From: Weeksellaceae bacterium
Lineage (GTDB): Bacteria; Bacteroidota; Bacteroidia; Flavobacteriales; Weeksellaceae
Assembly (NCBI GenBank): GCA_022013695.1
Contig: JAKLPS010000028.1
Coordinates: 1-42,538, forward strand
DNA: 42,538 nucleotides
Direction: 5' to 3'
The notes under the pieces are model-generated. The model had not been told where the DNA came from and made no database searches. It saw only the letters and a list, made by a program, of their open reading frames with translations. Every line of letters starts with the position of its first letter. Position 1 is the stretch's first letter. Both the position numbers and the translations under genes were made by a program. Below are positions 9,613 through 35,409 of this stretch, piece by piece.

Positions 9613-9850
9613 TTGGTTTATTTTGGCGTAAATATCGTAAAAATTTGGAAACTGTTTAAATTTGCTTCTTATTTATTTTAAACGAAATTCCCTATTTCAA
9701 GGATATTTTGATTTTTACAAGTCGCTTTTATGGAGCTTTTTCGATGCTGTTTAATTTTATTAATAATAATTTTTCTGTAGGCCAATTTCTCTCAGCTTAA
9801 ATGTGCTCTAAAACGTTTTTTCCGACGTTGAAAGATGGTTGTCGCCACAA

Positions 9851-9995
9851 CATAGCCCCGATAGGAACGGCATCCTTTTTCTTTTTTGTTGAGGAACTGC
9901 GATGGCGGACAGACGCGTTCTAAAAAAAGAAAAAGATATAGTGGATAGCGGGTTGGACCGGTGAAAAGAAATGAAAACGTGATGCTCCTAAAAAA
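9851..9995. repeat. Intergenic repeat element, copy A
   Basis: Begins CATAGCCCCGATAGG and ends with GCTCCTAAAAA. Internally CTTTTTCTTTTTT (9875-9887) is exactly complementary to AAAAAAGAAAAAG (9923-9935), flanked by CCCCGAT / AGCGGG-type outer arms. The second copy (35291-35409) has the same plan and the same orientation. Copy A has about 26 extra bases between AGCGGG and GCTCCTAAAAA. It occupies part of the gap between upp and der (9613-10034); the rest of that gap, 9613-9850, shows no gene. Confidence 0.8.
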
Positions 9996-14716: not shown

Positions 14717-15028
14717 TTAAGAAGCTTCCTTATTTTGTTGTAGAACGGGTATTTTGCAACTCAGGAGCTTGTATTCGCCGAGATAGTTTTCAATCTTGCC
14801 GATTTCATCATCTGTTATTTTCAGAAGAAGTTTTACATTTCCAAAGTTGTTGCCATTCAGATACTCGATATGCGCATTGACGATTTTGTAATTGATTTTG
14901 TAATGATTGTAAATCGTGTACAACAAAATATCGAAACGGATTTTGCCGTTCAGTTCTATTTCCAAGATGACTTCTCGTGCTCCATTTTCCACAGGAACAT
15001 TGCCGTAAGTTTGCTTTTTCTCCTCCAT
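14717..15028 (-). CDS. NIL-domain-like small protein
   Basis: A 103-residue protein whose core (about 18-90) resembles the NIL domain, the ACT-like ligand-binding module at the C terminus of methionine ABC-transporter ATPases: block KIVNAHIEYLNGNNFGNV followed by LLLKI and a helix. Stand-alone NIL proteins occur in Bacteroidota near methionine genes, as I recall, so an amino-acid sensing role is possible but unproven. I use the ATG at 15028; the longer ORF from 15073 would start inside a terminator stem. A promoter at 15191-15221 implies a leader of about 155 bases containing a structured element and an intrinsic terminator. Confidence 0.7.
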   Translation of the reverse strand: MEEKKQTYGNVPVENGAREVILEIELNGKIRFDILLYTIYNHYKINYKIVNAHIEYLNGNNFGNVKLLLKITDDEIGKIENYLGEYKLLSCKIPVLQQNKEAS

Positions 15029-15070
15029 AATTCTATATATTTTGATGAATTTTACCTTTAATCTTGAAAT

Positions 15071-15100
15071 CAAAAAAGCTTTACCGGAAAAGTAAAGCTT
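15071..15100 (-). terminator. Intrinsic terminator inside the leader of the NIL-domain gene
   Basis: On the minus strand AAGCTTTAC and GTAAAGCTT (plus 15092-15100 and 15076-15084) form a perfect 9-bp stem with a 7-base loop, followed by a T-run (plus A 15072-15077). It lies between the promoter (15191-15221) and the start codon (15028), as in attenuators and transcriptional riboswitches. An alternative is that it ends the upstream C92-type gene whose stop is at 15247. Confidence 0.85.
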
Positions 15101-15165
15101 GTGACATATTCTCTCCTATCCAATGATCTACTTGGGATTACACATTTTGATCTGAGAGAATAAGT
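15100..15165 (-). promoter_or_regulatory. Candidate structured RNA leader, possible riboswitch aptamer
   Basis: A 9-bp perfect stem closes the element: TATTCTCTC (15107-15115) with GAGAGAATA (15154-15162). Inside is a smaller hairpin, CAA/TTG plus ATC/GAT with a bulge (15118-15123 with 15132-15138), and a 15-base unpaired segment on one side. A four-base complement (CACA 15141-15144, TGTG 15100-15103) could form a pseudoknot that touches the first pair of the adjacent terminator. I could not match it to SAM-I (no GGCAACC core), SAM-II, TPP or other aptamers I know. Confidence 0.5.
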
Positions 15166-15190
15166 GATACATTTAATTCTAATTCTATTG

Positions 15191-15221
15191 CAAATATAGA
15201 AATTAATTATTTCCTACCAAA
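15191..15221 (-). promoter_or_regulatory. Consensus promoter of the NIL-domain gene
   Basis: Minus strand TTTG (plus CAAA 15218-15221), 19 bases, then TATATTTG (plus CAAATATA 15191-15198): a complete -33/-7 Bacteroidota promoter, the best in the window. Transcription should start near 15184, giving a leader of about 155 bases before the ATG at 15028. Confidence 0.8.
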
Positions 15222-15246
15222 TAAGTATGAATTAAATTCAAAAAAA

Positions 15247-15873
15247 TTATTTAAGTTCCCCGATTTTGCTTAATTTCTCCGATGCCGCCAAGCCATTCGG
15301 ATTGCAGCCTGGTGCACCTTCCGGAACTTTCAGGTTTTTTGTCTGATAAAATCTTTCCCAAAACGCATTGGTTTGTTTGGTTTTTGGGTCGATGAAAGTC
15401 ATTGGTTCTAATCTGAAGATCTGATATTCCCGGAATGCTCTTTCCACAAAATCCGAACAGTAATAGGAATTCTCATCCAAGATGTAATTGAAATTGTACG
15501 GTTTACCAACCAAAGTTTCGGCCTTAGAAATCGCATTGGCAATCGCCGATTGGTATTCGAATTTCAAACGGTAAATATCAATTGTCTGACCCTTTTTCGT
15601 CTGTTCTCTCAAAAACCGATTTAATTTTTGTTTCTGAGAACCGCCTTTGGGAGCGGCGTGCAGAACGTATAAATGGTCTTCTTCTTTTTTCACGATTCCG
15701 ATATGGTCATAAGATGTTTTCTTTTCCGTTTGCGTCACATTGTTGATGGCGCCGGACAGTCCCGTTTCCACAGCCGACACAAAAAGCAAATCGCCGTTTT
15801 CCAAAATTGAGGTATTGTAAGTTCTACAACTTAATGTCAACAAGAACAAAAAAAGTAAGAACGATTTTTTCAT
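15247..15873 (-). CDS. YiiX/C92-type permuted papain-like lipoprotein
   Basis: A 208-residue lipoprotein with lipobox LTLSC (Cys16). The mature part matches the YiiX/YebB group of NlpC/P60-like enzymes (PF05708, peptidase family C92), which have a circularly permuted papain fold: GDLLFV near 27-32, the catalytic His in YDHIGIV (His57) and the catalytic Cys in YYCSDFVERAF (Cys139). These enzymes cut amide bonds in peptidoglycan-type or lipid substrates; the exact substrate is not known. It seems monocistronic. A TATCTTTG promoter core reads towards it at 15958-15951. Confidence 0.85.
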   Translation of the reverse strand: MKKSFLLFLFLLTLSCRTYNTSILENGDLLFVSAVETGLSGAINNVTQTEKKTSYDHIGIVKKEEDHLYVLHAAPKGGSQKQKLNRFLREQTKKGQTIDIYRLKFEYQSAIANAISKAETLVGKPYNFNYILDENSYYCSDFVERAFREYQIFRLEPMTFIDPKTKQTNAFWERFYQTKNLKVPEGAPGCNPNGLAASEKLSKIGELK

Positions 15874-35159: not shown

Positions 35160-35290
35160 TTGATTGGATTTGATTTTTTCAAATTCGCTTTTATGCAGTC
35201 TAATTTTTTATCAACGCGGGAACTTAAGCCTCGCTTATTGCGTACACGCGCTACTTCTTCGGAGGTGAGATTTCATTCTGTGACTCAACC

Positions 35291-35409
35291 CATAGCCCCG
35301 ATGGCAGCGGCATCCTTTTTTGTTTTTTGGTGTTAAACTTTTAATCAAACTGAGAAACGTTCTAAAAACAAAAAAGATATAGCGGACAGCGGGATCAAGC
35401 TCCTAAAAA
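35291..35409. repeat. Intergenic repeat element, copy B
   Basis: Begins CATAGCCCCGATGGC and ends GCTCCTAAAAA. Internally CTTTTTTGTTTTT (35315-35327) is exactly complementary to AAAAACAAAAAAG (35364-35376). It shares its ends and plan with copy A at 9851-9995, in the same orientation, but its stem sequence differs by paired changes. It fills most of the 307-base gap (35160-35466) inside the PUL between the esterase and GH144-like gene; the flanking bases show no gene. Confidence 0.8.

Follow-up and report, generated by a model that had tools for sequence, protein, structure and literature searches.

A probable leader-peptide attenuator, most likely sensing cysteinyl-tRNA charging, upstream of a stand-alone NIL-domain gene in Weeksellaceae

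Background

Ribosome-mediated attenuators of the trp and his type are built from a leader peptide and alternative 1:2, 2:3 and 3:4 pairings of the transcript, and known attenuators usually contain runs of the codon that is sensed. Flavobacterium psychrophilum presumably belongs to the same order as the organism studied here. Leader-peptide attenuation has been reported for its amino-acid operons, the same kind of mechanism as the one proposed below, and the sections of that report used here do not name cysteine, NIL or DUF4395 (PMC9723704). According to the sections of the sources used, the uORFC-8-2 motif lies upstream of cysS in Rhodobacterales with cysteinyl-tRNA proposed as the signal (PMC8632094), and cys/cbs operons of Mycobacterium, Propionibacterium and Bifidobacterium have Cys leader peptides (PMC1262725). 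NIL/ferredoxin proteins of Desulfovibrio are described, in the excerpt used, as participating in homocysteine synthesis (PMC5764234).

The element described here precedes a gene for a stand-alone NIL-domain protein in the window, that is, the whole stretch of 42,538 nucleotides analysed from a Weeksellaceae genome. In common with trp- and his-type systems it has an AUG frame that includes the putative sensed codon, a stem overlapping this frame, a predicted alternative pairing with the terminator arm, and an intrinsic terminator with a U-run. Unlike them, the leader in the window has a single Cys codon, its antiterminator is modestly supported and the genes are of uncertain function. As far as the excerpted description allows the comparison, the uORFC-8-2 motif is similar in that it combines a short frame, in which Cys codons are conserved, with a pair of stems and a terminator-like 3' end, but differs in phylum, gene and the tandem Cys codons usually found at positions 14-15 (PMC8632094). 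The cys/cbs leaders likewise have Cys codons in a frame before sulfur genes, although those of Mycobacterium are described in the sections used as having no conserved terminator, with Rho suggested, and their Cys runs lie near the stop codon (PMC1262725). Leader-peptide attenuation is thus a known kind of mechanism; for this gene, lineage and single-codon design, as for Cys-codon attenuators of Bacteroidota or green sulfur bacteria, no earlier report was found among the matches listed, from a collection that lacks most subscription papers.

Results and discussion

The NIL gene, its promoter and its terminator

An earlier sequence-only reading of this DNA had proposed a riboswitch or attenuator, with methionine or S-adenosylmethionine (SAM) as ligand, from a promoter, a perfect 9-bp closing stem and an intrinsic terminator placed before the ATG at 15028, and all three were recovered (Table 1). 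The gene product had been said to resemble a NIL domain, and it matched Pfam NIL (PF09383) at E 2.7e-7 with 30.8 bits (cut-off 24); an NCBIfam search of it returned no match. The terminator was the sole terminator-like site in 14960-15300 (mean of 0.1 in shuffles). The promoter was assigned from what we take to be the Bacteroidota promoter consensus; a looser pattern (spacer 17-21) had 9 matches in the window, one of them the leader promoter, against 1.74 expected. The upstream gene on the same strand encodes a C92 peptidase and ends at 15247, and since the leader promoter lies after this end, the hairpin is not merely the terminator of the peptidase gene.

Table 1 Features of the leader and the regulated gene in the window
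Feature	Position	Strand	Remark
Possible regulator palindrome	15207..15235	(-)	overlaps the -33 TTTG; right arm imperfect in the window; seen by eye
Promoter TTTG-N19-TATATTTG	15191..15221	(-)	Bacteroidota-type; similar sequence before other leaders (by eye)
Leader-peptide frame MYHLFSQIKMCNPK*	15128..15172	(-)	homologous frame in 22/22 leaders of the genus
Stem P1 5' arm (region 1), TATTCTCTC	15154..15162	(-)	inside the frame, codons 3-7
Invariant Met-Cys codons (ATG TGT)	15140..15145	(-)	predicted ribosome stall site
Predicted antiterminator 5' strand (region 2)	15111..15122	(-)	inferred from folding
Stem P1 3' arm (part of region 2), GAGAGAATA	15107..15115	(-)	after the stop codon
Intrinsic terminator AAGCTTTAC-loop-GTAAAGCTT with U-run	15072..15100	(-)	terminator scan
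Predicted antiterminator 3' strand (region 3, terminator 5' arm and loop)	15085..15097	(-)	inferred from folding
Regulated gene, stand-alone NIL-domain protein, 103 aa	14720..15028	(-)	Pfam match

The leader had been put forward as a candidate new element, and Rfam gave no gathering-score match there and, at relaxed thresholds, three chance-level matches below that score. A SAM-I core had been described as not apparent, and the RF00162 covariance model had no match at the leader. SAM-I riboswitches were present elsewhere in 23/23 genomes of the window's genus. Two Flavo-1 RNAs (RF01705) scored above the gathering threshold at 35290-35400 (+) and 9850-9959 (+) of the window.

A possible palindrome for a regulator was seen by eye across the promoter. 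Its form in relatives was TTAATTCATAC-TTATTTG-GTGGGAATTAA and in genus g6, probably Chryseobacterium, ATTAGTCTAC-TAATTTG-GTRGACTAAT (both by eye). The motif at one mismatch or fewer had 2 matches in the window's own genome, one of them the leader promoter site, so no regulon could be drawn. At the promoters of the stand-alone NIL genes of g6 (L055-L075), TTTGGTRGA was present at the -33 element in 21/21 and the full palindrome TTAGTCYAC-NAATTTG-GTRGACTAA in 9/21, which looks like a putative repressor site; a diverged form is retained in the window's genus.

Conservation of the leader and its operon

The window's genus is probably Epilithonimonas. When its 23 genomes were searched at the protein level, 22 had the NIL gene, G012 being the one without it, and the leader was conserved upstream of the NIL homologues in 22/23. 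In 20 of the 22 loci the leader and NIL were separated by a DUF4395 gene, located by tblastn using the protein of L003, which itself matches PF14340; in the window and in L017 this gene was missing and the leader directly preceded NIL. A covariance model (R1) derived from 16 of the leaders was used with stricter filters on 320 genomes of the family. Twenty-four genomes had a match with an E value of at most 0.01, of which 22 were of the window's genus with one leader each, and no credible leader was found outside the genus in this search. The remaining two matches were rejected by eye: L053 (E 0.008) is flanked by two other genes and has mainly the terminator in common with the leaders, and L054 (E 0.0098) is inside a coding frame.

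Among 391 genomes of the order, stand-alone NIL genes, as judged by frame length, were seen only in g1, g6 and g8. NIL domains also occurred in long frames of about 343 aa, which we take to be MetN. The window's own genome had a single NIL match, the window gene, and 18 of the 21 other NIL-bearing genomes of the genus had two; the MetN-type frame may therefore be absent from the window's genome.

A probably translated short frame within the leader

A reading frame at 15172-15128, overlooked in the sequence-only reading, lies within the element. All 22 leaders of the genus contained an AUG frame, 14 or 15 codons long, and an in-frame 3-nt indel occurred among them; versions elsewhere in the genus read MKRIFSHIIMCNPK*, MKQIFSQMAMMCNTN* and MIKSYSHIMMCKTN*. 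Seventeen distinct frames were compared by codon, leaving out the extra codon of the 15-codon frames. Codon 10 was ATG in 17/17 and codon 11 encoded Cys in 17/17 (TGT 15, TGC 2), this being the one invariant Cys codon of the frames; extra Met codons occurred in some. Peptide conservation extended to F5 and S6 (16/17 each), I8 (15/17) and K14 (14/17), and the stop codons varied (TAA 9, TAG 4, TGA 4). Pairwise differences at codon positions 1, 2 and 3 numbered 283, 246 and 781, a third-position bias matched in about 0.03% of random column reassignments (p about 0.0003, to be taken as a guide only since the leader sequences are related and not independent). The conserved part of the leader thus behaves as a translated short frame.

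Structure of the leader

The 161-nt stretch 15190-15030 had a folding energy of -31.3 kcal/mol, where its shuffles averaged -23.1 with an sd of 3.1 (z -2.67; 3/200 as good). The ten pairs of the terminator were kept in 16/16 aligned leaders, three of them changed on both sides, and RNAalifold on the MAFFT alignment of these 16 leaders returned the terminator and no other structure. The closing stem, P1, was pairable at 9-12 of 12 positions in each of the 22 leaders, a count that favours pairing as the 3' arm was picked as the best match, with mismatches in several; a CTC/GAG to CAC/GTG exchange separated clades. The P1 probability in the window was 0.99 against 0.44 in shuffles (0/60 as high) and the mean over leaders was 0.64 against 0.33.

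In the unmasked RNA, P1 had a probability of 0.61-1.00 in 14 of 20 distinct leaders and of at most 0.21 in the other six (L012-L017), where P1 was below its own shuffles and the free RNA prefers the antiterminator. Masking a ribosome footprint at the Cys codon reduced P1 to 0-0.08 and left 7.9-13.0 antiterminator pairs in 20/20 distinct leaders (mean 11.6 against 8.7 in shuffles). Moving the mask to the stop codon in L012-L017 lowered the antiterminator pairs from 7.9-13.0 to 3.4-6.6. With the whole terminator loop included, the antiterminator in 20 leaders had a duplex mean z of -1.51 and a nascent-fold mean z of -1.21; with only the first loop bases it was no better than chance (mean z -0.18). 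In the window the antiterminator was marginal, with 7% of shuffles doing as well and a nascent-fold z of -0.01; L003 and L021 were no better than shuffles and L013 and L022 were weak. The statistics for the predicted antiterminator are modest and mixed between clades.

Cys-codon leaders in other lineages

Two NIL genes of genus g8, which belongs to the same family, had an unrelated leader frame ending in ...QNCA.NMQQCINYGIG[GS]*, whose last codons were pairable with a terminator arm (-12.2 and -11.3 kcal/mol). A DUF4395 gene of g8 had a leader MKTTLSTFTKIQKMNCCCSF... (MNCCC) with a similar pairing of -14.6, all three values being given with no shuffle control. These Cys leaders of NIL and DUF4395 genes come with terminators. 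No Cys frame was seen by eye in two further g8 DUF4395 leaders (L094, L095), and none of the 21 NIL loci of g6 had an ATG frame with Cys starting after the promoter.

DUF4395 was present in 18 of 395 genomes of the order sample. Nine of the 18 loci were read, omitting six copies of the window's genus and three weak matches (L109-L111), and by eye only L099 clearly had a frame with a Cys run and a terminator. In the phylum sample DUF4395 was present in 95/296 genomes; among 28 loci, L153, L164, L165 and L171 had a Cys-rich frame with a nearby terminator and several others had chance-like frames only.

Family f31 was taken as Chlorobiaceae, presumably correctly, because the FMO bacteriochlorophyll protein (PF02327) was encoded in 6/6 of its genomes tested. 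It contained 65 DUF4395 matches in 60 genomes, of which 59 upstream regions from 56 genomes were sampled, two of them shortened by contig ends; L164, L165 and L171, already covered in the phylum sample, two matches at contig ends in G834 and a weak one in G746 were omitted. An AUG frame with at least three consecutive Cys codons (CCC) was found in 34 of the 59 regions, whereas the reverse strand had 2 and shuffles averaged 0; 27 regions had four Cys codons in a row. A terminator followed within 150 nt of the CCC frame in 34/34. Twenty-five regions had no CCC frame and 20 not even two consecutive Cys codons (CC). The weaker CC criterion was satisfied by 39/59 regions, but it was common on the reverse strand (13/59) and in shuffles (4.85), so only the CCC count was used; a cruder count (at least two Cys codons, M or V start, terminator near) gave 46/59. 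The frames in L172-L230 start roughly 150 nt before a strong terminator and have up to seven consecutive Cys codons (L187), often with Met just before.

An Rfam scan of 16 loci of other lineages had no match in any leader; the matches elsewhere in these loci were a SAM riboswitch in L185 and a tRNA in L143. The former (444-531, (+)) is close upstream of the Chlorobiaceae DUF4395 gene and points away from it.

Sulfur-metabolism context

The single SAM-I copy of the window's own genome was upstream of two genes, a MetX-like one, of which a 200-residue piece scored below the cut-off against TIGR01392 (E 1.2e-26), and one recognised by eye as homoserine-dehydrogenase-like. In L171 of the Chlorobiaceae, DUF4395 was followed by an O-acetylhomoserine sulfhydrylase gene (TIGR01326, 590.5 bits against a cut-off of 495.1). 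In one genome (G275, locus L100), DUF4395 was directly before a MetN-like gene with a NIL domain and a MetI-like gene (named by eye), an arrangement that links DUF4395 to methionine-type uptake. Gene context assigns both NIL and DUF4395 to the metabolism of sulfur amino acids in general, and the NIL gene may serve cysteine supply.

Proposed mechanism and alternatives

We propose that the element controls transcription by leader-peptide attenuation mediated by the ribosome, and that the charging of cysteinyl-tRNA is most likely what it senses, a reading we hold to be probable. Genome comparison supplies the frame, the conservation of Met-Cys, the terminator, the operon context and the recurrent Cys-codon leaders, and folding predicts P1 and the antiterminator. 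Transcription would start about 12 nt before the 14-codon frame. With ample Cys-tRNA, the ribosome would pass the Met-Cys codons and leave at the stop codon; P1 could then form between frame codons and the stretch after the stop, followed by the terminator, and transcription would end before NIL. With Cys-tRNA scarce, the ribosome would wait at codon 11 and cover the 5' arm of P1, and the freed 3' stretch would pair with the terminator instead, at its 5' arm and loop, and so form an antiterminator. The polymerase would then read into NIL, or into DUF4395-NIL in most relatives.

The single Cys codon counts against this reading, since known attenuators usually have runs. So do the modest antiterminator statistics, the preference of L012-L017 for the antiterminator over P1, the RNAalifold result, and the loci of g6, g8 and the Chlorobiaceae that have no Cys frame or Cys run. 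Met is also as conserved as Cys, and the same attenuator could instead sense Met, or Met and Cys together, with methionyl-tRNA charging as the signal. This is unlikely but the best of the alternatives: further Met codons accompany the invariant codon 10 in some frames, Met is found within three residues before CC in 22 of 39 Chlorobiaceae CC frames (chance frames included), and NIL domains are shared with the presumed MetN frames. Against it, leaders of the same gene families elsewhere have runs of at least three Cys codons and no Met runs, methionine starvation would lower initiation on the leader as well, and the genome's own SAM-I riboswitch stands upstream of the MetX-like gene. Because the leaders of other lineages have two Cys codons or a run of them before the same gene families, they point to cysteine, and provided that the mechanism is attenuation we consider cysteine the likelier signal with fair confidence.

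It is improbable that the peptide F-S-x-I-x-M-C itself arrests the ribosome on a sulfur metabolite, independently of tRNA charging. Conservation beyond Met-Cys (F5, S6, I8, K14) and the presence of only one Cys codon would suit such a nascent-chain sensor, but the F5 and S6 codons belong to the P1 arm, where pairing may be what conserves them, and by eye no such peptide was common to the other Cys leaders.

A riboswitch that binds methionine, SAM or some other sulfur metabolite is very improbable, although a compact folded leader with a terminator before a sulfur-related gene would be in keeping with one. The frame is conserved with third-position bias and variable stop codons, and Rfam has no match. 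In the alignment of 16 leaders no extensive unpaired core with conserved sequence was seen by eye beyond the frame; a ligand-binding core outside the coding sequence was looked for and not found, the conservation being that of the frame and stems. Of the original proposal of a riboswitch or attenuator, a conserved cis-regulatory leader stands and an attenuator fits, and a ligand-binding riboswitch is unsupported. Evidence against its methionine or SAM version comes from the conserved part, which behaves as a translated short frame, from the Cys codons in leaders of other lineages, and from the SAM-I riboswitches elsewhere in the genus, with the genome's own copy upstream of the MetX-like gene. 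Equally improbable is a gene for a small functional protein, for which 14-15 codons are short, or a relic leader of a lost DUF4395 gene with no present role on NIL, as the missing DUF4395 in the window and L017 could suggest, since both still have an apparently intact frame, terminator and promoter.

Conclusions

The riboswitch claim is replaced by a leader-peptide mechanism, probably cysteinyl-tRNA attenuation, that can be tested. For DUF4395 and the stand-alone NIL protein, both functionally uncharacterised, it suggests cysteine supply as the likely physiological signal, and it draws attention to probable Cys-codon attenuators of both Bacteroidota and the green sulfur bacteria. More tentatively, and with the balance slightly against it, DUF4395 and stand-alone NIL might form a phylum-wide cysteine-starvation regulon, from the window's family to the Chlorobiaceae, in which leader-peptide attenuators have arisen or been rebuilt repeatedly with unrelated sequences. 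If so, sulfur uptake or sulfide assimilation would include DUF4395 and NIL as components so far overlooked, and a single conserved Met-Cys pair would be sufficient as a sensor.
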